Assembly: GCA_018436785.1 (NCBI GenBank)
Contig: JAHDKR010000101.1
Coordinates: 1-49,685, forward strand
Reading direction: 5' to 3'
Source: Synergistaceae bacterium
GTDB taxonomy: Bacteria > Synergistota > Synergistia > Synergistales > Aminobacteriaceae
DNA: 49,685 nucleotides
Below are positions 8,565 to 28,530 of this stretch, piece after piece; positions within the stretch are counted from its first letter, which is position 1, and the number at the start of each line of letters is the position of its first letter. Under the pieces are notes generated by a model. The model had not been told where the DNA came from and searched no databases. It worked only from the letters and a program-made list of their open reading frames with translations. The translations under genes were made by a program, and so were the position numbers.

Positions 8565-9932
8565 ATGAAACGTCGATATATGAAGCAGCAGTGGACCTTG
8601 CGCTTCAAAAAACTTGGACTGATAGAGGAAGGAGCCGTCCGGATAGCTCCTCTCATGATTTTTACCGGCGATAACAACACCGGAAAAAGCTACGTCATGA
8701 CTCTGCTCTGGGGGGTGATCGCGCTCGGACGCAGCCTCTTCCCGACGTCGATTCCGGAGAGCGACTCGTATCGCCAGTGCGAAAAGTGGCTGGGGAGTTT
8801 TTCGCAGGAAGGTGAAGACGAAAAAATGCTGCTCCCCGAAGACGAGGAGGTTTTCGTACGTTGGTTCGGAGACGTGCTCAACCAGCGGCGACAGACTCTC
8901 TGCGACGAGCTTTTCGGGGAAAACGCAGTGCGGCTTCGCGAGCTTCGCATTACGGATTTTGTTCGCGAACGGCCTCTTTCCCTTCGATGGAACAAAGACG
9001 CGGCCGAGGGAAGCCGGTATTCCAGCGGAGAACACTATGTCCGCTTCCCGCTGCCGTCGAGTCCTCCTCCCCGAGCCGAAGTCTACAGGATGATCCAGTA
9101 TTTAACCTGGAAGCTGATCATGGACGATTTGAGCGCGCCTCTCTATCCTCCGCGATCTCCGGTGAAAACCGTTCCCCCGGGCGAGATCCTCTACTTGCCG
9201 GCGGCACGAACAGGGTTCGTGCTCTTGCGAAAAACTCTTGTTTCCGCAGCGCTGAGCATGGGAGGCGAGAGCGTGCCGCTTCTGCTGCCCGTCAGGCGTT
9301 TCGTTCAACGCCTTCTTACCCTTTCCTTCAAAGAGAAAAACAGGTTCTCCGCCTTCGCGGATATTCTGGAGCGCCGAATTCTGCGCGGACACATTCACCC
9401 GGACGGCGCTCCGCTACCGGAGTACCGATACAGTCCTCAAGGCCAGGATAACGAAGCGCTCCCTCTTTGGCGGACGTCGTCGCTTGTTACGGAGCTTGCT
9501 CCGCTTCTTGTCTTTCTGCGAGGGAACGACGATTTTCGCTCTTTGATCATCGAAGAACCGGAAGCGCACCTTCATCTGGAAATACAGAGAGAGCTCGCCC
9601 GCCTTCTGGTTCGATTGGTGAATTCCGGTCTTCCCGTCTGGATCACGACGCATGGAGATACCTTCTTTCAGCAGGTGAGCAACCTGGTCAAGGCGTCGGC
9701 CATGGATGACGCCGCTCTCTCCCGGCTCGATCTGGAGCCCGAAGAGAGCATACAGCCGGAACGGGTTTCAGCATGGCATTTCCGGAGAGTCTCCGCCTCG
9801 TCCGGTCGCGACCGAACCGAAATTTCGCCGTTGCACGCCGATCATGACGGAATAGCCGCAACCGCGTTCAATGCGGCCATAGCCGAACTCACTCGGCAAA
9901 CTCTTGACTTGAGCCCGGACGATGAAGCGTGA
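8565..9932 (+). CDS. AAA/ABC-type (OLD/SMC-like) ATPase of a two-gene candidate defence module
   Basis: A 455-residue ATPase of the AAA_15/AAA_21 type. It has a Walker A at about residues 35-42 (GDNNTGKS), a long middle section, a Walker B at about 327-338 (LIIEEPEAHLHL) and a switch histidine in WITTHGDTFFQQ. This is the architecture of the ATPases in Septu, PARIS, Gabija and retron effector pairs, where a stand-alone P-loop protein senses phage and controls a nuclease. No TOPRIM domain is fused to it. The gene overlaps the downstream putative nuclease by 11 bases. I do not recognise this exact pair as a named system. Confidence 0.82.
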   Translation: MKRRYMKQQWTLRFKKLGLIEEGAVRIAPLMIFTGDNNTGKSYVMTLLWGVIALGRSLFPTSIPESDSYRQCEKWLGSFSQEGEDEKMLLPEDEEVFVRWFGDVLNQRRQTLCDELFGENAVRLRELRITDFVRERPLSLRWNKDAAEGSRYSSGEHYVRFPLPSSPPPRAEVYRMIQYLTWKLIMDDLSAPLYPPRSPVKTVPPGEILYLPAARTGFVLLRKTLVSAALSMGGESVPLLLPVRRFVQRLLTLSFKEKNRFSAFADILERRILRGHIHPDGAPLPEYRYSPQGQDNEALPLWRTSSLVTELAPLLVFLRGNDDFRSLIIEEPEAHLHLEIQRELARLLVRLVNSGLPVWITTHGDTFFQQVSNLVKASAMDDAALSRLDLEPEESIQPERVSAWHFRRVSASSGRDRTEISPLHADHDGIAATAFNAAIAELTRQTLDLSPDDEA

Positions 9933-10458
9933 ACGAGTGGAAAGCACCGCAGCAACGGAGGGAACGCAACTCGTCGTTCGAGAGTCCGAAGAGAGCGGCG
10001 AGGCCGAACTGACGCTGAATATCGCACGGAACGGAGTACTTTTTCAGTACCCGCATAATAACAACTTCATCTTCTCGAATAAAAAGCGCGCGGACGGCAT
10101 TCTCTTCTTGCAGAGAGAGAATGACTGGGAGGTCATGATCGTCGAACTCAAAAAGACCGTGAAGGCCAAGGAGTGGATGAAGATCAAAGAACAGTGGCAT
10201 GGAGCATGGCTTCATGCTCTGGCCCTCTCCGGTGTTCTGGAGGCTCCTTTTCCCAACCCTCCCCGTTTTCTGGTGGCGTACCGCAAGGACGGTATCGGCG
10301 AGAACGCTCCCGATCCGATCCTGTTGAAATCGCCAGAGTATGCTCTTGCCTTCATCGAGTGGAGGAAGGGGCGCGCCGCCTTGAACGAGATCGGAGAAGC
10401 AGCCTTTGAAAAAGCGCCTCTCGATGAAACGGGAAGAGGCGAATTGCGTATTCCATGA
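9922..10458 (+). CDS. Putative PD-(D/E)XK-fold nuclease partner of the ATPase
   Basis: This 178-residue protein is not one I can name. A likely restriction-endonuclease-like core is visible: strand and turn with Asp58 (KKRADGILFL), then the E-x-K motif Glu75-Leu-Lys77 in WEVMIVELKKTVK, followed by a helix (WMKIKEQWHGAWLHALAL) that would carry the fourth conserved position (Gln91). The spacing of these residues fits PD-(D/E)XK enzymes. Its start lies inside the 3' end of the ATPase gene, so the two are translationally coupled. The expected role is DNA or RNA cleavage gated by the ATPase; that is inference from motif and context. Confidence 0.6.
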   Translation: MKRERVESTAATEGTQLVVRESEESGEAELTLNIARNGVLFQYPHNNNFIFSNKKRADGILFLQRENDWEVMIVELKKTVKAKEWMKIKEQWHGAWLHALALSGVLEAPFPNPPRFLVAYRKDGIGENAPDPILLKSPEYALAFIEWRKGRAALNEIGEAAFEKAPLDETGRGELRIP

Positions 10459-13763: not shown

Positions 13764-14378
13764 ATGGGAAATTCGGAATACGCCATGTCTTTTTCAACAG
13801 GAGGTCTTTTTCGCCGGGAATCGTTGGAGGCGGCTTCTTTGTTTCTTCAAAGCGGTTCGTGGGATGCTGTCCGGAAGGAGATTATGGCAAAAAATCTCCT
13901 CCAGGCCAGAACCTTGAGCACGTTGCAGCGGGAGTGCCGCGAGGTCCTCTCCCGGTTGCGGTTGCTCAACGGCGAAGAGCTGCGTTTCCTGGTCGAAGCG
14001 GAGTACCGGGAGCAGGGACACCTCCTTTGGATCGCCGTCTGCCGCCGCTACCCCTTCGTCCGCGACTTCGCCGTCGAAGTGCTCAGGGAGCGCTATATCA
14101 CTCTGAAAGCGGATGTGCGCTACGAGGAGTTCGACGCCTTTTTCAACGCGCAATCGGAGGCGCATCCGCAACTCCATGAAATCAGCTCCACGACGAGGAA
14201 GAAGCTGCGGCAAGTCCTCTTCAAAATTCTCCGCGAGTCGGAACTGCTGGATTCGGACAACACGATCATCCCGGTCATGCCCGGCGCGGAACTGACAGCC
14301 TTGATCTCGCGCGGCAATAAACGGGAACTTCTCCTTTTCCCTGTATTCGAATCCGACCTCAAGGGGATGACGCAATGA
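13764..14378 (+). CDS. brxA: BREX protein BrxA (DUF1819)
   Basis: This 204-residue protein matches the BrxA/DUF1819 family in order, size and sequence style: STGGLFRRESLEAASLFLQS near the start, then LSTLQRECREVLSRLRLL and the FVRDFAVEVLRERYI segment. BrxA is a small helical DNA-binding protein of type 1 BREX. An in-frame TAA directly precedes ATG 13764; ATG 13785 (MSFSTGG) is an alternative that resembles the family start better, and neither has a clear ribosome site. It is the first gene of the operon and overlaps brxB as ATGA. Confidence 0.88.
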   Translation: MGNSEYAMSFSTGGLFRRESLEAASLFLQSGSWDAVRKEIMAKNLLQARTLSTLQRECREVLSRLRLLNGEELRFLVEAEYREQGHLLWIAVCRRYPFVRDFAVEVLRERYITLKADVRYEEFDAFFNAQSEAHPQLHEISSTTRKKLRQVLFKILRESELLDSDNTIIPVMPGAELTALISRGNKRELLLFPVFESDLKGMTQ

Positions 14379-14986
14379 AAAAGGATATCGCGGCACGTCC
14401 TGTGCAGGAGAGATTGCAGCATCTTTTCTCCGTGATCTCCGGCAGGAGGTTCCTCGAAAAACAGGGGCTGGGCAACGAAGTGCCGTTCTTCATCTGCCCC
14501 TACCCGCCGGAGGAGTCCGTGGAGATGGATCGTATGCGGCGCAGCTTGGTCAGGCAGTTGGAAAACGCGGGAGTCCGGATTCTGGAGATCGACCTGTACG
14601 ACCTCTCGGTCGAAATACTCAAAGAGCGGGGTATCTGGGATCGAATCCTCAAGATGGAGACCTCGACTTCCAAGGAAGAGCTGAATGAGCTCTTACAGGG
14701 AGTGCTGGATCCGAAGGCGAACCTTGTGCCCGCGATCGCCGCCCGGATGGCGGGCGCTGAGTTCGACGTGCTCTTCATTTCCGGGGTCGGCGAAGTCTTT
14801 CCCTGCATACGGTCGCACAGTGTGCTCAACAATCTTCAGAGTACCGCGAAGGAGCAACCCACCGTCATGTTCTTCCCGGGAGCCTACACACACTCGTCCG
14901 AGTCGGGCGCCTCGCTGGACCTCTTCGGAAGGCTGCATAACGATAAATACTACAGGGCATTCAATATCTTCCACTGCGAAGCATGA
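14375..14986 (+). CDS. brxB: BREX protein BrxB (DUF1788)
   Basis: A 203-residue DUF1788 protein. Family features include FFICPYPPEESVEMDRMRRS with a later LEIDLYDLSVEILKERGIWD segment, VLFISGVGEVFPCIRSHSVL and PTVMFFPGAYTHSSES. Its biochemical role in BREX is not known, but it is needed for restriction in the systems studied. It overlaps brxA by 4 bases and ends next to brxC, so it should be made in step with both. Confidence 0.9.
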   Translation: MKKDIAARPVQERLQHLFSVISGRRFLEKQGLGNEVPFFICPYPPEESVEMDRMRRSLVRQLENAGVRILEIDLYDLSVEILKERGIWDRILKMETSTSKEELNELLQGVLDPKANLVPAIAARMAGAEFDVLFISGVGEVFPCIRSHSVLNNLQSTAKEQPTVMFFPGAYTHSSESGASLDLFGRLHNDKYYRAFNIFHCEA

Positions 14987-15000
14987 GAGAGGGGATCGAA

Positions 15001-18000
15001 ATGACTCTGAAGGACATTTTCAAAAAACCGGTCGACCGTCCGATCGAAGGGGTTATCAAGGCCGACGACGAAGCGAGCCTTCGCCTCGAGATAGAGGAGT
15101 ACGTCCTCACCAACGAAATCGAAAAACGCCTGGAATCCTTTCTTGCGGCGTACAATAGCTGTGACGGCTCAAACGGGGCCTGGATATCGGGATTCTTCGG
15201 ATCGGGTAAATCGCATCTGCTGAAGATCCTCGCCCTGCTTCTGGAGAACCGCGAGATCGACGGAACGGCGGCGCTTGAACTCTTCCTCCCCAAGTGCGGC
15301 GACAACGAGATCCTTCGCGGCGACCTCAAGAGAGCCTCGTCCATCCCCTCGAAAAGCATCCTGTTCAACATCGACCAGAAGGCGGATATCATCAGCAAAA
15401 CGCCGATCGACGCCCTGCTCGCGGTCTTCGTCAAGGTCTTCGACGAGATGTGCGGCTACTACGGCAAGCTCGGGCATATCGCCCAGTTCGAACGTGATCT
15501 GGACAGCCGCGGACTCTACGGGAAATTCACATCCGAATACCTGGCATGCGCCGGGATACCCTGGCAAAAGGGGCGCGAGCAGGCGCTGCTGGAGGGGCGC
15601 AACATCGCCCGCGCATACGCCGCCGCCGGCGGAGGCGAAGAGGCCGAAGCATCCGGGATACTGGACAAGTACCGCAGCCAGTACCAGGTGTCGATCGAAG
15701 ACTTCGCGGAACAGGTCCGCGCCTACATCGAAAAACAGCCCTCAGGCTTTCGGCTGAACTTCTTCGTCGACGAAGTCGGCCAGTACATCGCCGACAACAT
15801 CAAGCTGATGACCAACCTCCAGACCATCGCCGAAAGCCTGGCCACCAAATGCCGGGGGAGGGCGTGGATCGTCGTCACCGCCCAGGAGGACATGGACACG
15901 GTTGTCGGAGAAATGAGCCGGCGGAAGGGGAACGACTTCTCGAAGATACAGGCGCGCTTCAACAACCGGATGAAGCTCACCAGCGCGAACGTCGCGGAGG
16001 TCATCCAGAGCCGCCTGCTGACGAAAAACGACGAAGGAGTGCGCCTCCTTACCGATCTCCATCAGGCGCAGTCCAACAACTTCAAGACCCTGTTCGACTT
16101 CTCCGACGGGTCGAGGCACTACAAGAACTTTCAGGACCGGGAACACTTTGTCCGCAGCTACCCCTTCATCCCGTACCAGTTCGGCCTCTTTCAGTCCTCC
16201 ATCCAGAACCTCTCGCAGCACAACGCCTTCGAAGGGAAGCACAGCTCCGTGGGGGAGCGTTCCATGCTCGGGGTCTTCCAGCAGGTGGTCATCCACATAG
16301 GAGGTAACGCGACAGGCCGTCTCGCGACCTTCGACCTGATGTTCGAAGGCGTCCGCACCGCCCTCAAATTGCAGATTCAAAAGGCGGTCATCCAGGCGGA
16401 GAATCACCTCGGCGACCCCTTCGCTGTCAGGCTTCTCAAGGCGCTCTTCCTCGTCAAATACGTCAACGCTTTCAAGCCGACGGTGCGCAATCTCTGCGTC
16501 CTGATGCTGGAGCGCTTCGACGAGGACCTTCCCGCGCTGAAAAAGAGGGTGGAGGAGGCGCTCAACCTTCTTGAACAGCAGACGTACATTCAGCGGAACG
16601 GCGACGTGTACTCCTACCTCACCGACGAAGAGAAGGACGTCGAGCAGGAGATCAAAAACACCGTGGTCGAGCACGCCGACGTATCTGCGGAACTGGAGAA
16701 GATCGTCTTCGACCACGTGCTCAAGATCGGAGGCAACAAAATCCGCTACGACGAAAACGGCCAGGACTACCAGTTCTCACGGAAGCTCGACGACCGGCTC
16801 TACGGCCGGGAATACGAGCTGGCCGTCCATGTCGTCAGTCCGTTTCACGAGAACGCCGAAAACGAATCGGCCCTCGCGATGATGAGCATGCTCAAAGAGG
16901 AGCTGCTGGTCGTGATGCCGCCCGACGACCGGCTGATCCGCGATCTTCTTATGTACAAGCGCACCGAGAAGTATATACGGCAGAACATCTCCATAGCGCA
17001 GCAGGAGAGCCTCAAACGCATCCTGAACGACAAGGGGCTCCGGAACAGGGAGCGCCTCGCGGAAATACAGCAGCGGGTCCGCCGCCTTCTTGGCGGAGCG
17101 AAGCTCTTCCTCGCCGGAACTGAACTCGAACTCTCCTCCGAAGACGCGCAGACGAGGGTGATTCAAGGGTTCTACGAACTGATCGCCCGCGCCTACCCCC
17201 ATCTCCGGATGCTCCGCGGCGTCCGCTATACGGAGAGCGACGTCGCGAAATACCTCGCGCAGTCGAAGGACGGGCTCTTCGGAACCGACGAAACGCCGAT
17301 CACCGAAGCCGAACAGGAAGTCGTGAACTACATACGGAACAACGGCGCGGAGGGCGTGAGGACCACATTGAAGAGCCTTCTGGAGGGGTTTGGACGCAAG
17401 CCCTACGGATGGTACTATGCCGCCGTGCTCTGCACTCTGGCGCACCTGTGCGCGCGCGGCAGGGTGGAGGTGCGGGAGGACGGCAATCTGCTGGAGGACG
17501 ACGACCTTGAGCGCGCGCTCAAAAACACGCACGGGCACGGCAACGTGGTGCTGGAGCAGCAGATGGAGTTCACCGCATCCCAGCTTCGGGCGCTCAAAGA
17601 GTTCTACGGCGATTTCTTCGATGCGACGCCGCGCGCCGTCGAGGCGAAAGCCCTCGGAAAAGAGACGTCCGAAGCGTTTCAGGAGCTTCGACGTCACCTT
17701 GCGCTTCTGATGAACCAGGCGGAGCGCTACCCCTTCATCAACGCCCTCGAACCGGTGGCCGAAGCGCTGAAGGAGTGCGCGGACAAGCCCTCCACGTGGT
17801 ATCTGACGGAACTCCCGCGCCGGACGGACGCCCTGCTCGACATGAAGGAGCAGGTGATCGACCCCCTCCGCAAGTTCATGAGCGGGCCGCGGAAGGCTAT
17901 CTTCGACGATGTCCGCGAATTCGTCCGGATGCAGGAGCCGAACTTCGCCTATGTCCAGTGCGAGGAGGCCGTCCGCCTGAAGAACGTCCTCGTCGATCCG

Positions 18001-18528
18001 GACTGTTTCCGGAACAGCCGTATGCAGCAGGCGAAGAGCGATCTGGAAGCCCTGAAGAAAAAGATAGACGATACCCTGCAGGACGAGGTCGGAAACGCAA
18101 AAAAGCGCGTCGCCGCGCTCGAAAAACGCCTGCGCGGAGCGCCCGATTTCGATAAGCTGGCGCCGGACAGGCAGGAGCAGATCGTCGCGGAATTTCAGAA
18201 GACCATCGACGAAATAGAGGGGCAGAACCTCATCGCCGTTATCCGCGACACGGCGCGGCAGTTCGAGGAGTCCGGCTATAAGCGGCAGCTTTCGAGGATG
18301 ACGGAGTGGCTGACGCGGGTCGCCTCTCCTTCGTCCGGCCCCGGAGCAGAGCCTGGAATCACCCCCGAACCCGCGCCCCGCATCGAATACGTCTCCAGCA
18401 GTTCGCTCATCGTCTCTTTCGACAAGCCGTGGCTTGCCGACGAGAACGACGTGGACCGCTATGTGGCCTCCATGAGAAAGGCGCTGCTTGCGGAAATTCG
18501 CAGCGGGAAGAGGGTGCAGGTATTATGA
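15001..18528 (+). CDS. brxC: BREX ATPase BrxC
   Basis: A 1175-residue large P-loop ATPase, the size and start expected for BrxC (MTLKDIFKKPVDRPIEGVIK). The Walker A, GFFGSGKSHLLK, is at about residues 63-74; FFVDEVGQYI near residue 255 serves as Walker B. The C-terminal third is helical and charged, with likely coiled coil. ATG 15001 has AGAGGGG upstream; an ATG at 14983 that overlaps the brxB stop is possible but resembles the family start less. BrxC is thought to be part of the BREX complex with PglX and PglZ. The gene ends overlapping the pglX start. Confidence 0.93.
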   Translation: MTLKDIFKKPVDRPIEGVIKADDEASLRLEIEEYVLTNEIEKRLESFLAAYNSCDGSNGAWISGFFGSGKSHLLKILALLLENREIDGTAALELFLPKCGDNEILRGDLKRASSIPSKSILFNIDQKADIISKTPIDALLAVFVKVFDEMCGYYGKLGHIAQFERDLDSRGLYGKFTSEYLACAGIPWQKGREQALLEGRNIARAYAAAGGGEEAEASGILDKYRSQYQVSIEDFAEQVRAYIEKQPSGFRLNFFVDEVGQYIADNIKLMTNLQTIAESLATKCRGRAWIVVTAQEDMDTVVGEMSRRKGNDFSKIQARFNNRMKLTSANVAEVIQSRLLTKNDEGVRLLTDLHQAQSNNFKTLFDFSDGSRHYKNFQDREHFVRSYPFIPYQFGLFQSSIQNLSQHNAFEGKHSSVGERSMLGVFQQVVIHIGGNATGRLATFDLMFEGVRTALKLQIQKAVIQAENHLGDPFAVRLLKALFLVKYVNAFKPTVRNLCVLMLERFDEDLPALKKRVEEALNLLEQQTYIQRNGDVYSYLTDEEKDVEQEIKNTVVEHADVSAELEKIVFDHVLKIGGNKIRYDENGQDYQFSRKLDDRLYGREYELAVHVVSPFHENAENESALAMMSMLKEELLVVMPPDDRLIRDLLMYKRTEKYIRQNISIAQQESLKRILNDKGLRNRERLAEIQQRVRRLLGGAKLFLAGTELELSSEDAQTRVIQGFYELIARAYPHLRMLRGVRYTESDVAKYLAQSKDGLFGTDETPITEAEQEVVNYIRNNGAEGVRTTLKSLLEGFGRKPYGWYYAAVLCTLAHLCARGRVEVREDGNLLEDDDLERALKNTHGHGNVVLEQQMEFTASQLRALKEFYGDFFDATPRAVEAKALGKETSEAFQELRRHLALLMNQAERYPFINALEPVAEALKECADKPSTWYLTELPRRTDALLDMKEQVIDPLRKFMSGPRKAIFDDVREFVRMQEPNFAYVQCEEAVRLKNVLVDPDCFRNSRMQQAKSDLEALKKKIDDTLQDEVGNAKKRVAALEKRLRGAPDFDKLAPDRQEQIVAEFQKTIDEIEGQNLIAVIRDTARQFEESGYKRQLSRMTEWLTRVASPSSGPGAEPGITPEPAPRIEYVSSSSLIVSFDKPWLADENDVDRYVASMRKALLAEIRSGKRVQVL

Positions 18529-21500
18529 TGGACACCGCCGCCCTGAAAAAGTTCGCCCGGGCCGCCCGCCGCACCCTGATGGAGCAGACCGGCGCACGGT
18601 TGAAGCTGGTTCTCTCCGAAGGAAGCGCGGCCCGCCGCGAGAGCCCGGAGGCCGTGAGAAACCTGGACGAGGCCCTCGAACGCGACGGCAGGGAGCGGGT
18701 CGTCGAAAACGTTGCGTACACGTGGTTCAACCGCTTCTGCGCGCTCCGCTTCATGGATGCGAACGGCTATACCGGCATCGGCGCGGTGTCGCCCGCGGAG
18801 GGGCAGTCGCAGCCGGAGATTCTCGCGGAGGCCAAGATGGGGCATATCGACGAGGAGATCGCAGGCGACGCGCTACGTCGACGGATAACCTCTCTTCTTT
18901 CGGGGAGCGCCCCCAGCCGCGACCCGCAGCAGGAGGCCTACCGGCTGCTTTTGGTCGCGGTCTGCAACTTCTGGCACAGATCGATGCCCTTCCTCTTCCA
19001 GCGCATCGACGACTACACCGAACTGCTCATGCCGGACGACCTCCTCTCCGAAAACTCCGTCCTCTCTTCTGTCCGCGAGGCGATGACCGGCGAGGCCTGC
19101 CGCGACGTCGAAGTGATCGGATGGCTCTACCAGTTCTACATCTCCGAGAAGAAGGACGAGGTCTTCGAGGGGCTCAAGAGGAACGTGAAGATATCCCCCG
19201 AGAACATCCCGGCGGCCACCCAGCTCTTCACGCCGCACTGGATCGTCCGATACCTCGTGGAGAACTCTCTCGGTCGGCTCTGGATGCGCAACCGCCCCGC
19301 CTCGAAGCTGAAGGAGCGGATGGACTACTACATCAAGCCCGAAGAGCCCGAGACCGACTTTCTGCGCATCGCCTCGCCCGAGGAGATCCGCGTCTGCGAC
19401 CCCGCCTGCGGTTCGGGCCACATGCTCGCCTACGCGTTCGACCTGCTCTGCGCAATCTACGAGGAGGAGGGGTACGACCCCGCCTCGATTCCCGGCATGA
19501 TCCTCGCGAACAACCTCTACGGCATCGAGATCGACGAACGGGCGGGGGAGCTTGCCGCCTTCGCCCTCGCCATGAAGGCACGCGCGAAGTACCGCCGCTT
19601 CTTCCGAAAGCCCGTGCAACCCAACATCTGCGTCCTTCGGAACGTCCGCTTCGACGGGGAGGAACTGCAGCGCTACATGGAGCACATCGGACAGGAGCTG
19701 TTCACCCAGCCTCTGCTGGACACGATTCGGCAGTTCGAGGAGGCGGAGACCTTCGGCTCCCTGATACGCCCCGCCCTCGCGGACGCCTCGGCGGCGCTGC
19801 GCGCGCTGGAGCCCGCGGACATCTCCGGGCGGATCTTCCTGACCGAGACCCGCAGCAAGGTGCTCCAGGTTCTAAGGCAGGCCGACTACCTGAGCGGAAA
19901 GTACCACGTGGTGATCGCGAACCCCCCGTACATGGGAGGCAAGGGAATGAACGCGAGGCTTTTCGCGTGGGCGAAAGAGAACTACCCGGACAGCAAGTCC
20001 GATCTGTTCGCCATGTTCATCGAGCGGAACCTAGAGTTTTCTCGAAGGCACGGAATGGTTGCCATGATCACGATGCAGAGTTGGATGTTCCTCTCCTCAT
20101 TTGAGAAATTCCGTGGGCTGCTTCTGGAACAGAGCACGCTGCTCTCAATGGCTCACCTTGGAGCGAGGGCTTTCGACAGCATCGGAGGAGAAGTCGTTTC
20201 GACAACCGCGTTTGTGTTGGGAAGCTATACGCGACCAGAGTATCGGGGAGGATATCTGCGATTGATAGACGGGGACTCCGAAAGCGAGAAAGAGTCGGCT
20301 ATTCGTGAAGCCGTCAAGAATCCTGATTGTGGTTGGTTTCATCGTGCCGCTCCATCGGACTTCAAAAAGATACCGGGAAGTCCGATAGCGTATTGGCTTG
20401 GCGATAGAATGCTCAAGGTTTTTGAATCAAATCGCATGATTGGCGATGTCCTCGAGCTGAAAGCGGGGTTATCTACAGGTGACAATACTCTGTTTCAAAG
20501 GTTTTGGTACGAGGTAACCAAAGAGGCTATAAGTTTTTCTACACTGGATATCGTTGAAACGCCAAAGAAACCGGAAAGGTGGTATCCGTGCCATAGTGGC
20601 GGAGAGTACAGAAAATGGTTTGGCAATCACGAAACAGTGGTCGATTGGAGCAATAACGGAGCGGCGATACGAAGATTCGGTTCGGAATGTGGCAAAATAC
20701 GATCGGCGGTCCGAAACGAAGCTTTCTATTTTCGGAAAGGAATAACCTGGTCGAAAATCAGCTCCGGCAAGTTCGCCGCCCGCTGGCGTCCCGAAGGATT
20801 CCTTTTCGATGATACCGGAAGGTGCGGCTTCGCAGAAGATGACTCGATTCTATACCGCTCTCTCGCGCTGTTTTGTTCTTGCCTTGCGGATAAATTTCTG
20901 CGTGTGCTCTGCCCCACGTTGAGTTTCACCAGCGGAGAAATTGCAAAAATTCCGTATTGCGATCATCCGAATCATTCTGTGATCGACGGGGCAAAAGAAA
21001 TCATTACCATTGCAAAATCCGACTGGAACTCCTACGAAACCTCCTGGGACTTCAGAACCCTCCCGCTGCTCGCCCCCGAACATCGCCGGGCGACGCTGGA
21101 GGAATCCTACCGGCATCTTCGCGCCCGTTGGCGGGAGACCATGCTGGAGATGCGGCGGCTGGAGGAAGAGAACAACCGTATCTTCATCGACGCCTACGGC
21201 TTGCGGGACGAGCTGACCCCCGACGTGCCGCTGCACGAGATCACCCTCACCTGCAATCCGCACTACCGGTACGGCGCGGGCAAGAGCGAGGAGGAGCTGG
21301 AGGCGCTGTTGCTGGCGGACACCATGCGCGAGCTGGTCTCCTACGCCGTTGGGTGCATGTTCGGCCGCTACGCGCTCGACGAGCCCGGCCTGATCCTCGC
21401 CAATCAGGGGGAGACGCTCGACGACTATCTGCGGCGCATTCCTCGGCCGCTCTTTCCGGCGGACGAGAAGAACGTCATCCCCGTCGTGGACGGCGACTGG

Positions 21501-22070
21501 TTCGCCGACGGCATAGCCGAACGCTTCCGCGCCTTTTTGCGCACGGCCTTCGGAACGGAGCAGTACGAGGAAAACCTCCGCTTCGTCGAGAAGGGGCTGA
21601 ACATCAAGAACAAGCGGAACTACGGCATCCGCGACTACTTCCTCGGCGAGTTCTACGCGGACCACGTCAAGCGCTACAAGAAGCGTCCGATCTACTGGCT
21701 CTTCAGCTCCCCCAAAGGGAGCTTCAACGCGCTCGTCTATATGCACCGCTACCGTCCGGAGACGGCGGGCATCGTCCTCAACGACTATCTGCGCGAGTTC
21801 CGCGCGAAGCTTCTCTCGCACAAGGGGCGGCTTGAAGCGGTGAGCATCAGCGCCGCAGCCTCTCAGGGGGAGAAGACGAAGGCGCTGAAGGAGATCGAAA
21901 AGCTGGGCAAGGTTATCGCGGAACTTGAGGAGTACGAGCGCAACACGCTCTATCCGCTGGCCGCGGCCCGGCTGCGGATCGACCTCGACGACGGCGTGAA
22001 GGTCAACTACCCCAAGTTCGGCGCCGCCCTGAAAAAAATCCCCGGTCTGGATGAGAAGGAGGACGAGTGA
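18525..22070 (+). CDS. pglX: BREX adenine-specific DNA methyltransferase PglX
   Basis: An 1181-residue methyltransferase. It has AdoMet motif I (VCDPACGSGHMLAYAFDLL, near residue 290) and the catalytic NPPY motif (VIANPPYMGG, near residue 466), as in N6-adenine methylases. PglX marks host DNA at a non-palindromic site so the rest of BREX can tell it from phage DNA. The start ATGATG overlaps the brxC stop. Bases 20030-21010, roughly residues 500-830 and probably the target recognition region, are clearly poorer in GC than both flanks, which suggests exchange of specificity. No frameshift or phase-variable repeat is visible. Confidence 0.94.
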   Translation: MMDTAALKKFARAARRTLMEQTGARLKLVLSEGSAARRESPEAVRNLDEALERDGRERVVENVAYTWFNRFCALRFMDANGYTGIGAVSPAEGQSQPEILAEAKMGHIDEEIAGDALRRRITSLLSGSAPSRDPQQEAYRLLLVAVCNFWHRSMPFLFQRIDDYTELLMPDDLLSENSVLSSVREAMTGEACRDVEVIGWLYQFYISEKKDEVFEGLKRNVKISPENIPAATQLFTPHWIVRYLVENSLGRLWMRNRPASKLKERMDYYIKPEEPETDFLRIASPEEIRVCDPACGSGHMLAYAFDLLCAIYEEEGYDPASIPGMILANNLYGIEIDERAGELAAFALAMKARAKYRRFFRKPVQPNICVLRNVRFDGEELQRYMEHIGQELFTQPLLDTIRQFEEAETFGSLIRPALADASAALRALEPADISGRIFLTETRSKVLQVLRQADYLSGKYHVVIANPPYMGGKGMNARLFAWAKENYPDSKSDLFAMFIERNLEFSRRHGMVAMITMQSWMFLSSFEKFRGLLLEQSTLLSMAHLGARAFDSIGGEVVSTTAFVLGSYTRPEYRGGYLRLIDGDSESEKESAIREAVKNPDCGWFHRAAPSDFKKIPGSPIAYWLGDRMLKVFESNRMIGDVLELKAGLSTGDNTLFQRFWYEVTKEAISFSTLDIVETPKKPERWYPCHSGGEYRKWFGNHETVVDWSNNGAAIRRFGSECGKIRSAVRNEAFYFRKGITWSKISSGKFAARWRPEGFLFDDTGRCGFAEDDSILYRSLALFCSCLADKFLRVLCPTLSFTSGEIAKIPYCDHPNHSVIDGAKEIITIAKSDWNSYETSWDFRTLPLLAPEHRRATLEESYRHLRARWRETMLEMRRLEEENNRIFIDAYGLRDELTPDVPLHEITLTCNPHYRYGAGKSEEELEALLLADTMRELVSYAVGCMFGRYALDEPGLILANQGETLDDYLRRIPRPLFPADEKNVIPVVDGDWFADGIAERFRAFLRTAFGTEQYEENLRFVEKGLNIKNKRNYGIRDYFLGEFYADHVKRYKKRPIYWLFSSPKGSFNALVYMHRYRPETAGIVLNDYLREFRAKLLSHKGRLEAVSISAAASQGEKTKALKEIEKLGKVIAELEEYERNTLYPLAAARLRIDLDDGVKVNYPKFGAALKKIPGLDEKEDE
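20030..21010 (+). other. GC-poor segment inside pglX (probable target recognition domain)
   Basis: Sample 60-base lines here are about 40-45 percent G+C (for example 24 of 60 at 20521-20580), while lines on either side are near two thirds. Codon choice also shifts toward A/T-ending codons. The reading frame is continuous. It lies after the NPPY motif, where PglX proteins recognise their DNA site. Confidence 0.7.
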
Positions 22071-22071
22071 T

Positions 22072-23349
22072 ATGCGTATTCGGAGCCTGAAGCTGGAGAG
22101 GTTCCGGGGAGCCCGCTCCTTGCGGCTCGACCTGGATGAACGTCTGAACGTCTTCGTCGGAGTGAACGGAGCGGGGAAGTCCACGATTCTGGATGCGGCG
22201 GCGATTCTGCTCTCGTGGTTCATGAACAGGATAAAGCAGAGCGGGGCGTCCGGGAGGCCTATCGTCGAGGCCGATATCGCCAACGGCGAGGCTTCGGCGA
22301 ATCTGGAAATCGCCATGGAACACTCCGGGGTCTCTTTCGGCTGGAATGTCGCCAGGGTCCGAAGAGGGCGCGAAAGGAAGGAGATCGCTTCGGTTCTGAC
22401 CTCGGCGTCGGAAGCGGCCAACCGCATCCGGGCTGAAATTTCCGAAACCGAAGGAAGGTGTAATCTCCCTCTGTTCGTCTATTATCCCGTCAATCGAGCG
22501 GTGCTGGATATTCCGTTGCGCATACGGAGCAGGCATCGTTTCGACCTTCTCTCGGCGTATGACGAATCGTTGACCGGCGCGGCGAACTTCCGCACGTTCT
22601 TCGAGTGGTTCCGGGAGCGCGAAGATCTGGAGAACGAAAACCGCAGGCATCGGGAGAGTCCTGCGGAGTCCGGAGAATCGCCCTTTCCCGATCCCCAGTT
22701 GGAGGCGGTCAGGCGCGCCTTGAGGAGCTTCATGCCGGAGTTCGCCAACCTGACGGTCAGACGGAGTCCGCTGCGCATGGAGGTGGAGAAGAACGGCCGC
22801 AGACTGACTGTGGATCAGCTTTCGGACGGAGAAAAGGGCGTGATGGCGTTGATCGGAGATCTTGCCCGCCGGATGTCGATAGCCAATCCGCTGCTCGACG
22901 AGCCCCTGGAAGGGGAGGGCGTGGTGCTGATCGACGAGATCGATTTGCATCTTCATCCGCTGTGGCAGAGGATGGTGGTATCCGGAATGACGGAGATCTT
23001 TCCGAACTGCCAGTTCCTGATTTCGACGCACTCTCCCCATGTCGTCACGCATGTGCGGCCGGAACACCTTTTTCTTATGAGCATGACGGATGAAGGGCTG
23101 GAGGCCGCCCGCGCGGAGGAATCCTACGGAAAGACGGTCGAGCGGGTGCTGGAGGATCTGATGGGGTTGCCGACGACCCGGCCCGACGAAGTCAAGGAGC
23201 GCATTCTGGAAGTTTACCGGCGGATAGACGAAGGAGATCTGGATACCGCGAGAGAGTCGATCTCCGATCTGGAAAGCAGCATAGGGAAGGATCCCGAACT
23301 GCTCAAGGCGCGTGTGTTGATCAGACGCAAGGAGCTGGTCGGCAAATGA
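22072..23349 (+). CDS. Septu-like (PtuA-type) ATPase embedded in BREX
   Basis: A 425-residue RecF/SMC-like ATPase: MRIRSLKLERFRGARSL start, Walker A GVNGAGKST at about residues 30-38, an ABC-like signature LSDGEKGVMALIGD near 250, Walker B VVLIDEIDLHLHPLW near 285-298, and the switch ISTHSPHVVTHV. This layout is that of PtuA in Septu and in retron effectors, where it activates or inhibits an HNH nuclease partner. AAGGAGG precedes ATG 22072, one base after the pglX stop. It overlaps the HNH gene as ATGA. Assignment to Septu rests on the pair, not on a search. Confidence 0.82.
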   Translation: MRIRSLKLERFRGARSLRLDLDERLNVFVGVNGAGKSTILDAAAILLSWFMNRIKQSGASGRPIVEADIANGEASANLEIAMEHSGVSFGWNVARVRRGRERKEIASVLTSASEAANRIRAEISETEGRCNLPLFVYYPVNRAVLDIPLRIRSRHRFDLLSAYDESLTGAANFRTFFEWFREREDLENENRRHRESPAESGESPFPDPQLEAVRRALRSFMPEFANLTVRRSPLRMEVEKNGRRLTVDQLSDGEKGVMALIGDLARRMSIANPLLDEPLEGEGVVLIDEIDLHLHPLWQRMVVSGMTEIFPNCQFLISTHSPHVVTHVRPEHLFLMSMTDEGLEAARAEESYGKTVERVLEDLMGLPTTRPDEVKERILEVYRRIDEGDLDTARESISDLESSIGKDPELLKARVLIRRKELVGK

Positions 23350-23981
23350 AGCATGTGGTGAAAGGGAGCGAACCCCGTCTCTTCGCCGAATGGAAGGGGT
23401 GCGCCAACGAGAACTGGCGCCCTTCATGGGAGAATCTGGGCGGCGAACCCAAGAAAGCGCTCAAAGAGTCGCTGATTGCCGAACAAGGAAGCATCTGCTG
23501 CTATTGCGAGAGAAGGCTTGCGGAGAACGACTCCCACATAGAGCATTTTCGTCCCCGGTGCGATCCCGCAGTTGATCCTCTGGAGTATTCCAACCTTCTC
23601 TGCTCGTGTCAGGAGAACCTCCGGAGGGGAGAGCCCCGTCACTGCGGCAACTTGAAAGGGGACTGGTTCGATCCCGCGTTGCTGGTGTCGCCGCTTTCCG
23701 TTGATTGCGAGCGTCGCTTCGCTTTCACCGGCGACGGGGGGATCACGCCGGCCGACGAAAAAGACAGCGCGGCGTCGGAGACGATCAAAAGGCTTGGACT
23801 GAATATCTCCAAGCTGCGCGCGTTGCGCGCCGGAGCCGTCGAACCGTTTTTGGACGAAGCTTTGTCCCCCGAGGAGATGCGGTGTTTTGTTTCCGGCTAT
23901 CTTGCGAAAGACGACGCGGGGCGCTTCGGCGAATTTTGGACGACTATCCGCTATCTCTTCGGAGGCTTCGTCGAATCATGA
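23346..23981 (+). CDS. Septu-like (PtuB-type) HNH nuclease embedded in BREX
   Basis: A 211-residue protein of the TIGR02646/PtuB type. It has the zinc-binding CCYCERR (Cys51-Cys54), the HNH core HIEHFRPRCD (His64, His67), EYSNLLCSCQE with Asn83, Cys86 and Cys88, and Cys100. In Septu and related retrons this nuclease is held by the neighbouring ATPase and released on phage infection. The gene overlaps the ATPase gene and the pglZ gene by 4 bases each (ATGA), so it is tied into translation of the BREX operon. All expected catalytic residues seem intact. Confidence 0.85.
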   Translation: MKHVVKGSEPRLFAEWKGCANENWRPSWENLGGEPKKALKESLIAEQGSICCYCERRLAENDSHIEHFRPRCDPAVDPLEYSNLLCSCQENLRRGEPRHCGNLKGDWFDPALLVSPLSVDCERRFAFTGDGGITPADEKDSAASETIKRLGLNISKLRALRAGAVEPFLDEALSPEEMRCFVSGYLAKDDAGRFGEFWTTIRYLFGGFVES

Positions 23982-26476
23982 ACGAACGAATAGCGCAGGC
24001 GCTGACGAAACTCTTCGAACGCAGCCGGATCGTCTTCTGGTACGACGAAAAGCGGGAACTACGCGCCGGTTTCGAGGCGCTCGCCCTTCCCGATGTGGAG
24101 AAGATAGAGCTTGCCAACAACGAGTTCGGCGTGAAGTACCGGATTCTTCGCGAGCGGCCCAAGAACCGTTTTTTGCTCTACCGGGAGGGGCCGCGCCCGG
24201 ACGATCTGGAGAACTGGCTGCTGGACGTGGAGCTTGCCCATGCGGAGTTTCGCACCGACCAGGCCGCGATCTGGCTCTCGGAGCTGGAGCTTGGGGAGGA
24301 GTTCTCCGAAGTGGTCCGCTCCCATGCGGAGTTCTTTCAGGCCGCGCGGCGCAAAGAGGCGCTGAAAAAACTGCTGCTGCCGGACGATACGGTCGGCAGG
24401 ATCAGGCTCAAGATGCTTGCGGTCTGCGCGGGGGGCGATCCTCGCACGGACTCCGTGACGGAACAGCTCCTTGAGGAACTGGCCGACGGGCGGGACGAGA
24501 AGATACGGCTGATCGGACGGTGCGCTCTGGACGGCTTCCTGTGGGAGCAGATGTCGCGCAGCTATGGCTACCGCTCCGGCGAGCCGGGCATCCGCGACTT
24601 CGCGCTCGAACTCTTCAGGTCGTGCTACGCCATGGGAACGGACGGGGAGGTGAAGCTGACAGCCGACGCGCTGGTCTTTCTTAAACGATGGAAGGACAGC
24701 CGCCGGTTCGACGAGAGCTTCCAGTCGCTTTCCTCCGAATGCGAGGGGATTCTGGGTATCGAGCAGGATCTCACGAAGCGGGATTTCCGCGAGCTGATCG
24801 ACCTGGACTACTTCCGCCTGATCGATCAGAAGATCGTCAGCGATCTGGTGCGGGAGACGCTCTCGCGCACTGTTTCAGCCGGCGACGTGACGCTCTGGGT
24901 GCGCCGCAGGCGGCAGGGGCGCTGGTACCGCGAATTCAGCCACCTCTACGAGGCGATCGAATACGCCGCCCGTTTCCTCCACGCGCTCGACGAGGCGGAG
25001 CTGTCCATGGAGAGCCTGTCGGACGGGGTGCAGCGGTACTGCGGCTCGTGGTTCCGGATAGATCAGCTCTACCGCAAGTTCACGTACCATGTCCGCATGT
25101 CGGGGCAGGCCACGCTGATGTCGGCCCTGAGCGACCGGATCGAAAACCTGTACTCCAACAGCTATTTGCTGAAGCTCGGCGACGCCTTCCAGATATTCGT
25201 CGACACCGCGCCGAGATGGGAGGCTTTCCCTCTGCACACGCAGAAGGAGTTTTTCGAGCGGCGGGTGCGCCCCTTTCTGCGCAAGGAGAACAAGGTGTGC
25301 GTGATCGTGTCGGACGCGCTGCGGTTCGAGATCGCGGACGAACTGCTGGGCCTGATACGCCAGGAGGACCGCTACAGCGCGGAGCTGGAACCGGCGCTTT
25401 CGATGCTGCCGAGCTACACGCAGCTCGGCATGGGGGCGCTGCTGCCCAATGGCGAACTCGCGATCGCGGAGGATGAATCCGGCGCTGTCTTCGTGGACGG
25501 GCAGGACTCACGGGGCACGGAGAACCGCATCAAGATCCTTTCGAAGGCGAACGGGCTGCGGGCGACTGCCTGCAAAACGGACGAGCTGATGGCCATGAAG
25601 GGCGACGACTGCAGAGCGCTAGTGCGCGAGCACGATGTGCTCTTCGTCTACCACAACCGGATCGACGCCGTCGGCGACAAGCGCGAGTCGGAGGAACGGG
25701 TTTTCGAGGCGGCGGAGGAGTCGCTGCAGGAGATCGTTCGTCTGGTGAAGAAGCTGACGGGCGCCAACGTGAACAACATACTGGTCACCTCGGACCACGG
25801 CTTCATCTACCAGAACCGGGCCCTCGACGAGAGCGACTTCTTCGGGGGCGAGGCGAAGGGGGAGCGAATTCTTTACAGAGACCGCCGTTTCGTCCTCGGG
25901 AAGGGGTTGCTCCCCTCGCCGGGACTGCATACGTTCACTTCTGCGCGGCTCGGACTCTCCGGCGGGGTGGAGGTGCAGATTCCCAAGTCGATCAACCGTT
26001 TGCGGCTGAAGGGCTCGGGGAGCCGTTTCGTCCACGGGGGCGCTTCGCTGCAGGAGGTGGTTGTTCCGGTGCTCCGTATCAACAAGAGACGGACGAGCGA
26101 CCTCTCCTCCGTCGAAGTGGAGATCGTGCGCGGGGGCAGCGCGCTCATCACCTCCGGTCAGATCGCGGCGACGCTCTACCAGACGGAGGCGGCGACGGAG
26201 AAGGTGCAGCCGCGCCACCTCAGGGCGGGCATCTTCACGGAGTCGGGCGAGCTGATCTCGGACAGCCACGACCTGACCTTCGACCTGACTTCGGAGAACC
26301 CTCGCGAGCGAGAGCAGCAGGTTCGGTTTCTGCTCACCCGCAAGGCCGACGAGGCAAACGGCAGGGATGTGTATCTCAGACTCGAGGAAAAGGTTCCCGG
26401 CACTTCGTATTTCAAGGAGTACACGTCGCTTCGCTATACGATGCGCAGATCGTTTACCAGCGACTTCGACTTTTAA
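23978..26476 (+). CDS. pglZ: BREX alkaline-phosphatase-fold protein PglZ
   Basis: An 832-residue protein of the PglZ type A family. It starts MNERIAQALTKLFERSRIVF and has the alkaline-phosphatase superfamily metal sites: VCVIVSDALRFEIADELL near residue 443 and ILVTSDHGFIYQ near 602. PglZ is a core BREX subunit that partners with PglX and BrxB. ATG 23978 overlaps the HNH stop, with GGAGG 12 bases upstream. The frame is open upstream into the nuclease gene, but homology starts only here. It is followed by brxL after 17 bases. Confidence 0.92.
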   Translation: MNERIAQALTKLFERSRIVFWYDEKRELRAGFEALALPDVEKIELANNEFGVKYRILRERPKNRFLLYREGPRPDDLENWLLDVELAHAEFRTDQAAIWLSELELGEEFSEVVRSHAEFFQAARRKEALKKLLLPDDTVGRIRLKMLAVCAGGDPRTDSVTEQLLEELADGRDEKIRLIGRCALDGFLWEQMSRSYGYRSGEPGIRDFALELFRSCYAMGTDGEVKLTADALVFLKRWKDSRRFDESFQSLSSECEGILGIEQDLTKRDFRELIDLDYFRLIDQKIVSDLVRETLSRTVSAGDVTLWVRRRRQGRWYREFSHLYEAIEYAARFLHALDEAELSMESLSDGVQRYCGSWFRIDQLYRKFTYHVRMSGQATLMSALSDRIENLYSNSYLLKLGDAFQIFVDTAPRWEAFPLHTQKEFFERRVRPFLRKENKVCVIVSDALRFEIADELLGLIRQEDRYSAELEPALSMLPSYTQLGMGALLPNGELAIAEDESGAVFVDGQDSRGTENRIKILSKANGLRATACKTDELMAMKGDDCRALVREHDVLFVYHNRIDAVGDKRESEERVFEAAEESLQEIVRLVKKLTGANVNNILVTSDHGFIYQNRALDESDFFGGEAKGERILYRDRRFVLGKGLLPSPGLHTFTSARLGLSGGVEVQIPKSINRLRLKGSGSRFVHGGASLQEVVVPVLRINKRRTSDLSSVEVEIVRGGSALITSGQIAATLYQTEAATEKVQPRHLRAGIFTESGELISDSHDLTFDLTSENPREREQQVRFLLTRKADEANGRDVYLRLEEKVPGTSYFKEYTSLRYTMRRSFTSDFDF

Positions 26477-26493: not shown

Positions 26494-28530
26494 ATGAACG
26501 AACTCGACAAGAAGATCAACGCGCACTTCCCGGGACTCGTCGTCCGCAAGGATCTCGTCAAGACGGTCAAGGGGAACGCGATCGTTCCGACCTACGTTCT
26601 GGAGTACCTGCTGGGCCAGTACTGCGCGACAAGCGATGAACCGACCATTCAGGCGGGCATCGAGACAGTCCGGGAGATTCTGCGGAAGCACTACGTCCAT
26701 CGCGGCGAGGCGGGGCTTGTCCGCTCCAACATCAAGGAAAAGGGACGCTACAAGGTCATCGACAAGATAAGCGTCGCGCTGAACGACAAGACCGACGCGT
26801 ACGAGGCGGAGTTTTCGAACCTCGGCATCAGGAAGGTGCTGGTGGACTCCGGAACCGTCAAAGCCCATCCGAAACTTCTGGTCGGCGGCGTCTGGTGCAT
26901 CGCCGACGTGGAGTACGAATTCACCGAGGCGAAGAACGCCTCTCCGTGGATATTGTCGATGCTGAAGCCGATACAGCTCTCCCATTTCGATTTCGACGCC
27001 TACGCCGCCGCGAGGAGACAGTTTTCCACGGACGAGTGGATCGACCTGCTGATTCAGAGCGTTGGCTTCAATCCTGAGCTGTTCGGCAAGCGCAGCAAAC
27101 TGACCCATCTGCTCCGTCTGATTCCCTTCTGCGAGCGGAACTACAACCTGATAGAACTGGGACCGAAGGGGACCGGAAAGTCACATATCTACTCGGAGTT
27201 CTCCCCCCACGGCATTCTGCTCTCGGGGGGCGAGGTGACCGTTCCGAAGCTCTTCGTGAACAACTCGAACGGGAAGATCGGTCTGGTCGGCTACTGGGAC
27301 TGCGTCGCCTTCGACGAGTTCGCGGGGAAGAAGAAGCGCGTGGATAAGGCGCTGGTGGACATCATGAAGAACTACATGGCGAACAAGTCGTTCTCAAGAG
27401 GCATCGAAACCCTTGGGGCCGAGGCGTCCATGGTCTTCGTGGGCAATACCCAGCATACCGTGCCGTACATGCTGAAGCACGCCGATCTTTTCGACGAACT
27501 CCCGGAGTTGTTCTACGACTCCGCCTTCCTCGACCGCATCCACTGTTACATTCCCGGATGGGAGGCCGACATCATCCGGGGGGAGATGTTCTCCGACGGA
27601 TACGGTTTCGTGGTGGACTATCTGGCCGAGATTCTCCGTTCCCTGCGCGATCACGACTATTCCGACCGGTACAGGGAGCGCTTCACGCTCTCCTCCGACA
27701 TCTCGACCCGCGACCGCGACGGCGTCAACAAGACCTTTTCCGGCCTGATGAAAATCCTCTTTCCGGAGGGAAACGCCTCCGCCGAGGAGATGGAAATGTT
27801 GCTGCGATTCGCCGTTGAAGGGCGAAAGAGGGTGAAGGATCAGCTCCTGAGGATCGACTCCACCTACGGGAGCGTGCGTTTTTGTTATACCGATACGACC
27901 GGGAAGACGAAAACGGTCACGACGCTGGAAGAGGAGGAGTATCCGCACTACTACCACAAGACGGTCGCGGAGGGCGATGATGAGGTCGGGCGTGGAGCCG
28001 TCCAGGAGCAGGTGAAGGTTCCTGCGTCCCCGGAAGCGCCTCTTCAGGAGAAGCATCTCACCTTTCAGGAGAACCAGAAAGGGGTATCGTACGACGCGCT
28101 GCTGGGACCGTACCTCGAGGGCGCGACGAAGATCACGGTGACGGACCCGTACATACGGCTCTTCTATCAGGTGCGCAACTTCATGGAATTCCTGGAGACG
28201 ATCGTCAGGCGAAAGGCCCGTGAAGATGAGATCGAGGTGCATCTGATAACGGTCGAGGACGAATTCAAGGCCGATTCCCAGCACGAGAGCTTCGAGAAGA
28301 TACAGGAAGCCTCGGTCGCTCTGGGCGTAGCGTTCACCTGGGAGTTCGACGGCAGCGGCACGCTTCATGCCCGCCATATAACGACCGACCACGGCTGGAA
28401 GATCTCCCTCGATCGGGGACTGGATATATTCCAGCATTACGAGATGAACAACGCCTTCTCCTTCGCCAACCGCCTGCAAGCATTCCGCTCCTGCAAGGCG
28501 TTCGAGGCAACGTTCATCAGGGTGGATTGA
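26494..28530 (+). CDS. brxL: BREX AAA+ protein BrxL with an unusual C-terminus
   Basis: A 678-residue protein. The N-terminal region (MNELDKKINAHFPGLVVRKD) and the AAA+ core are typical BrxL: Walker A GPKGTGKSH near residue 225, Walker B VAFDEFAG near 271, and the sensor segment EASMVFVGNTQHTV. After about residue 520 it has GVSYDALLGPYLEGATKI, DPYIRLFYQVRNFMEFLETI and later HITTDHGWKISLDRGLDIFQ, which resembles the MIT C-terminal (MITD1, phospholipase-D-like) domain rather than a Lon S16 protease; I see no Ser-Lys dyad segment. BrxL acts on phage DNA in BREX. ATG 26494 is preferred over GTG 26485 because of GAGGG spacing. Confidence 0.88.
   Translation: MNELDKKINAHFPGLVVRKDLVKTVKGNAIVPTYVLEYLLGQYCATSDEPTIQAGIETVREILRKHYVHRGEAGLVRSNIKEKGRYKVIDKISVALNDKTDAYEAEFSNLGIRKVLVDSGTVKAHPKLLVGGVWCIADVEYEFTEAKNASPWILSMLKPIQLSHFDFDAYAAARRQFSTDEWIDLLIQSVGFNPELFGKRSKLTHLLRLIPFCERNYNLIELGPKGTGKSHIYSEFSPHGILLSGGEVTVPKLFVNNSNGKIGLVGYWDCVAFDEFAGKKKRVDKALVDIMKNYMANKSFSRGIETLGAEASMVFVGNTQHTVPYMLKHADLFDELPELFYDSAFLDRIHCYIPGWEADIIRGEMFSDGYGFVVDYLAEILRSLRDHDYSDRYRERFTLSSDISTRDRDGVNKTFSGLMKILFPEGNASAEEMEMLLRFAVEGRKRVKDQLLRIDSTYGSVRFCYTDTTGKTKTVTTLEEEEYPHYYHKTVAEGDDEVGRGAVQEQVKVPASPEAPLQEKHLTFQENQKGVSYDALLGPYLEGATKITVTDPYIRLFYQVRNFMEFLETIVRRKAREDEIEVHLITVEDEFKADSQHESFEKIQEASVALGVAFTWEFDGSGTLHARHITTDHGWKISLDRGLDIFQHYEMNNAFSFANRLQAFRSCKAFEATFIRVD

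Follow-up and report, generated by a model that had tools for sequence, protein, structure and literature searches.

A type I BREX BrxL with a MIT_C, phospholipase D-like domain at its C-terminus and a link to human MITD1

The BREX operon and its BrxL protein

The window analyzed here, by which we mean the whole stretch of 49,685 nt, is the forward strand of contig JAHDKR010000101.1 from a Synergistaceae bacterium (Synergistota). Pfam and PADLOC profiles identified in it a complete operon of type I BREX, an anti-phage system, in which brxA, brxB, brxC, pglX, pglZ, and brxL are all present in a single operon and brxL is the final gene:

13764..14378, + strand: brxA (PADLOC PDLC02443, E 3e-79)
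14375..14986, + strand: brxB (Pfam BrxB, E 3e-41; PADLOC)
14983..18528, + strand: brxC (PADLOC PDLC02479, E 0)
18528..22070, + strand: pglX (brxX) methyltransferase (PADLOC PDLC02521, E 0 from ORF residue 75; start placed from the profile match)
22051..23349, + strand: PtuA-like ABC/OLD ATPase of an embedded Septu-type module (PADLOC PDLC00271, E 1e-156)
23346..23981, + strand: PtuB-like HNH protein of the same module (PADLOC PDLC00320, E 7e-87; CxYC...HIEHFRPR)
23975..26476, + strand: pglZ (Pfam PglZ, E 3e-64; PADLOC PDLC02547, E 0; start placed from the profile match)
26494..28530, + strand: brxL with a C-terminal MIT_C/PLD-like domain, 678 aa (PADLOC PDLC02508 over residues 1–676 of 678)

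The brxL frame opens with an ATG at 26494, 17 bases after the end of pglZ, and is preceded by a plausible ribosome-binding site. The Septu-type module (22051–23981) is inserted between pglX and pglZ, and such OLD-ABC and HNH pairs are known from BREX loci (PMC12839542). Upstream of the operon, positions 8565–10458 hold a further gene pair, similar to PD-T4-4 A (E 8e-32) and PD-T4-4 B (E 1e-4).

The window BrxL is divided into the following domains and motifs:

26524..26916, + strand: BrxL_N, residues 11–141 (Pfam PF20442, E 6e-49)
26950..27876, + strand: BrxL_ATPase, residues 153–461 (Pfam PF13337, E 2e-128; likeness to PDB 8EMC/8EMH)
27970..28035, + strand: linker, residues 493–514, probably disordered (pLDDT below 50 in the full-length AF2 model)
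28081..28518, + strand: MIT_C (PF16565) PLD-like domain, residues 530–675 (Pfam E 3e-43; MITD1 in PDB)
28144..28158, + strand: DPYIR motif, residues 551–555 (D551, Y553, and R555 near-invariant and identical in MITD1)
28366..28389, + strand: HARHITTD, residues 625–632 (H-x-R-x4-D, HKD-like with Lys replaced by Arg)
28411..28425, + strand: DRGLD, residues 640–644 (roughly at the GSxN position of HKD enzymes)

The assignment of the AAA+ part to BrxL, made in the original prediction, is borne out by the BrxL_N and BrxL_ATPase matches and by the Walker A (GPKGTGKS, residues 223–230) and Walker B (ending in FDEF, residues 273–276) motifs, which are invariant across the aligned MIT_C-type relatives.

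Fold and conserved residues of the C-terminal domain

The last 150 or so residues had been predicted to resemble the C-terminal domain of MITD1, to adopt a phospholipase D (PLD)-like fold and to lack an S16 protease region, and all three proposals held. PF16565 scored 147.5 bits, with the curated cut-off at 25, over profile positions 1–141 of 142, and the Pfam scan returned no Lon_C (PF05362) match even at E values up to 1. The same scan of the whole protein found no MIT domain, which in MITD1 proper lies at the N-terminus and binds ESCRT-III. Among PDB sequences, a phmmer search with the last 178 residues retrieved human MITD1 only (2ymb and 4a5z; E 6e-18 and 8e-18), and searches of PHROGs and, by tblastn, of phage records gave no match. 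MITD1 is a cell-division protein, known as a membrane-binding ESCRT cofactor and not as an enzyme; it forms a dimer, and its C-terminal domain binds membranes. Hadders 2012 is said to be the source on its biochemistry.

Structure prediction gave the same picture. The AF2 model of the domain alone, built from an input alignment of 65 sequences from the window and the fetched relative loci, reached a pLDDT of 94.9, and its top Foldseek match was human MITD1 (E 3e-16 to 4e-15; rmsd 1.7–1.8 Å; TM 0.79–0.91, leaving aside the target-normalized scores of longer chains). The PLD-superfamily proteins Zucchini, PssA, PLD2, PLD3, and SauUSI followed far behind, at E 2e-4 or worse. In the full-length model (pLDDT 80.1), the first two domains matched BrxL 8EMC/8EMH and the last one matched MITD1. 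The domain swap in this protein is real, and its architecture has already been published as that of a presumed nuclease.

Comparison of 127 MIT_C domains revealed a strongly conserved set of polar residues. H625 and R627 are each kept in 126 sequences, and position 632 holds Asp or Asn in 125; R641 is kept in 126, and Q559, N562, G642, L643, D644, and R665 in all 127. Altogether, about ten polar residues are nearly invariant in addition to the H-x-R-x4-[D/N] site. Human MITD1 is identical to the window protein at D551, Y553, R555, Q559, N562, T586, H625, R627, W635, R641, D644, and R665, and has Asn at the position of D632. This conservation suggests a site that handles phosphates or phosphodiesters, and the domain is perhaps a nuclease. 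The pattern in the 127 sequences is HxRx4[DN] followed by [DG]RGLD; since the Lys of the canonical HKD motif (HxKx4D, then GSxN) is replaced by Arg in 126 of them and GSxN by [DG]RGLD, the site is not a canonical HKD site. An argument for catalysis from the HRD motif alone is further weakened by the presence of these residues in MITD1. The domain is acidic overall, with a net charge of −8.

Distribution of C-terminal types and relationship to MITD1

BrxL proteins of this kind are widespread. A single conserved-peptide scan of GTDB contigs yielded 411 relatives, the best 80 of which span 14 named phyla, and a plasmid search returned 25 records, 17 of them labelled brxL. Among 398 sampled Pseudomonadota genomes, BrxL_ATPase scored above the cut-off in 17, with MIT_C directly behind it in seven, one of which is the genome chosen as the sample center. 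MIT_C exceeded the cut-off in 26 of 394 Bacteroidota genomes, mostly in ORFs of 673–709 aa, and in only two of 188 genomes of Synergistota, the phylum of the window; the 14 control genomes, which included Methanosarcina acetivorans as an archaeon, contained no MIT_C match. The tail is also not standard in all long BrxL proteins, as the original prediction had supposed it might not be: Six others without MIT_C that were scanned match Lon_C (E 8e-12 to 2e-5). Since both kinds are found, long BrxL proteins have at least two C-terminal types, neither of them universal. BrxL-HKD was reportedly first described by Li 2025 (Menshen). With the Lon-like domain exchanged for an HKD-endoDNase with an HRD motif in 1030 of 2913 type-1 BrxL taxa (Rakesh and Krishnan 2026, NAR, PMC12839542), and with the seven of 17 Pseudomonadota BrxL counted here, the swap is common rather than singular, and the window BrxL is no oddity but a member of a large, already published class.

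Surveys with PF16565 have to avoid a trap. Weak matches covering approximately profile positions 58–125 occur in ORFs of 350–450 aa, and the five that were read (loci L027, L145, L193, L214, and L215) proved to be ABC-transporter ATPases, false positives in which the segment HDQ..EAMTM.DRIVV bears a chance likeness to the HxR motif.

MIT_C also occurs in other protein contexts. A plasmid of Candidatus Thiodictyon syntrophicum (L021, 5628–8471; also L207) encodes a 947 aa dynamin-family GTPase that ends in MIT_C (Dynamin_N 3e-20, MIT_C 3e-21), a bacterial fusion of this domain with a protein of membrane-remodelling type. A 349 aa protein of a Paenarthrobacter plasmid (L022, 7473–8522) begins with IF2_N and ends with MIT_C, with no BREX gene annotated nearby, and in a Bacteroidota genome (L187, 790–3414) MIT_C is followed by 11 Sel1 repeats.

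The MIT_C domains of BrxL form two subfamilies with about 30% identity between them: MIT1, which includes the window protein, and MIT2, which is absent from the window (loci L023, L024, L167–L169, L196–L200, and L208–L211). Two further MIT2 genes, on a Hymenobacter plasmid (L020) and at L201, are apparently broken, split over several frames. Identity to human MITD1 is about 35% for the window domain and 42–50% for MIT2 domains (L023 against 4a5z, E 1.5e-39); because MIT2 was picked by its score against MITD1, the higher values describe this subfamily and do not independently test how close it is. MITD1 grouped with MIT2 with support of 100/93 in a tree with a single eukaryotic sequence and without a good outgroup. 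MIT1 and MIT2 also separate in the tree of their BrxL cores, where MIT2 groups with Lon-type BrxL, although a single clade was not rejected (p-AU 0.16). By sequence identity, one BrxL subfamily is closer to MITD1 than to the other; we found neither this relationship nor the division into two subfamilies in the open-licence literature; in that literature, as distinct from all that has been published, no paper contains both MITD1 and BrxL. No one appears to have remarked on the close likeness between the BrxL tail and human MITD1, although the kinship is already implied by the Pfam MIT_C family and by the NCBI label "MIT C-terminal domain-containing protein". We consider it a tentative but serious possibility that the domain crossed between bacteria and eukaryotes, either out of bacterial defence genes or in the opposite direction, with the same conserved pocket then serving the same phosphate ligand in a factor of cell division and in an anti-phage ring.

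Proposed function and comparison with known systems

The reading that we prefer, at a probability of roughly one half, is that the window protein belongs to the HKD/HRD class of type I BREX BrxL and forms a DNA-loaded ring whose PLD-fold domain binds and probably cuts DNA. Its MCM-like AAA+ part would assemble as a ring on phage DNA in an ATP-dependent manner, as shown for a homologue, and the flexible linker would join to it the PLD-fold domain, which takes the place of the catalytically dead Lon-like domain of Lon-type BrxL. H625, R627, and D632, together with D551, Y553, R555, Q559, N562, R641, D644, and R665, would most likely form a pocket for the DNA phosphodiester. Cleavage would then probably proceed through a phospho-histidine step as in other PLD-fold nucleases, and the protein may act alongside PglZ once the ring engages unmodified phage DNA. 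This nuclease model is favored by the match of the BrxL core to the DNA-bound structure 8EMH and to 8EMC, the invariant ATPase motifs, and the complete type I operon; by the near-invariance of HxRx4[DN] and about ten further polar residues; by the nucleic-acid cutters among the Foldseek relatives (Zucchini, PLD3 with ssDNA, and SauUSI); and by the independent assignment of this BrxL class as an HRD-type HKD-endoDNase (PMC12839542). It is disfavored by the Arg at the catalytic Lys position, the replaced GSxN, the acidity of the domain, and the presence of the same residues in a human protein that is not known as an enzyme. The literature searched reports no nuclease or other activity for a BrxL of the MIT_C/HKD class.

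Several of these points would also suit a non-catalytic module for phosphate or DNA binding and dimerization, in which the pocket clamps a phosphate without cleaving it, and we regard this as the most credible of the alternatives, if less probable than cleavage. MITD1, which is not known as an enzyme, is itself a dimer with the same residues, and both Lys and GSxN are lost in the BrxL domain. The Lon-like domain that has been replaced is catalytically dead and mediates ring dimerization (PMC10164562). However, the near-invariant His (126/127) and the Arg and Asp/Asn at the HKD positions are hard to explain by dimerization alone. The original prediction had raised nucleic-acid or membrane binding as a possible alternative to proteolysis; the membrane proposal has no direct support, and the contrast with proteolysis does not hold. 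Action of BrxL at the site of phage DNA entry in the cell envelope is improbable: The nearest solved relative has a membrane-binding C-terminal domain, and the Thiodictyon protein fuses a related MIT_C to a dynamin-like GTPase, but the domain is acidic, the remainder of BrxL is a DNA-loading ring, the BREX partners of known role act on DNA, and in print the domain has been read as a nuclease. As for proteolysis, ordinary BrxL, an MCM-like ring that binds DNA, offers no contrast, since its own Lon-like domain has no Ser-Lys dyad and is inactive (PMC10164562, PMC12839542). That the C-terminus is a diverged Lon S16 protease, as only the family name would suggest, is refuted by the predicted MITD1/PLD-like fold and can practically be dismissed; other long BrxL do match Lon_C, which this protein does not at E up to 1, and even they lack the dyad.

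Turning from the rival readings to the link with MITD1, the human protein retains nearly every residue of the presumed BREX nuclease site. This leaves two options: an activity or ligand of MITD1 that has gone unsuspected, or an HRD-based assignment of BrxL as a nuclease that was too hasty. This link, and the doubt that it casts on the assumed BrxL nuclease site, is the lead worth keeping.

Among known systems, the BrxL class of PMC12839542 resembles the window protein throughout, with an N-terminal DNA-binding part, an MCM-like AAA+ domain, and an H-R-D HKD-type domain replacing the Lon-like one; from position and motif, we infer that the HKD domain described there and the MIT_C domain are the same set. 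In that text, activity is inferred from the HRD motif and the terms MITD1 and MIT_C do not occur, whereas the present comparison also shows that GSxN is missing and that MITD1 has the conserved residues in common with BrxL. The PADLOC model PDLC02508, whose match includes the C-terminal domain, describes the same class, with no difference seen. BrxL of Acinetobacter sp. 394 (8EMC, 8EMH; E 3e-143 by sequence), an MCM-like ring that binds DNA and has no Lon active site, is 48% identical to the window protein in the N-terminal and ATPase parts over about 475 columns, but its C-terminus is an inactive Lon-like fold that holds two rings tail to tail (PMC10164562), where the window protein has a PLD fold. 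PLD nucleases such as Zucchini/PLD6, PLD3, and SauUSI have this fold in common with the window domain (Foldseek E 2e-4 to 5e-3), but the query-normalized TM is only 0.41–0.46, and the window domain lacks the canonical HxKx4D...GSxN. Human MITD1 (2ymb, 4a5z) shares the Pfam family, the fold, and the near-invariant polar residues except for Asn in place of D632; unlike the window BrxL, it carries a MIT domain at its N-terminus and lacks an AAA+ part.
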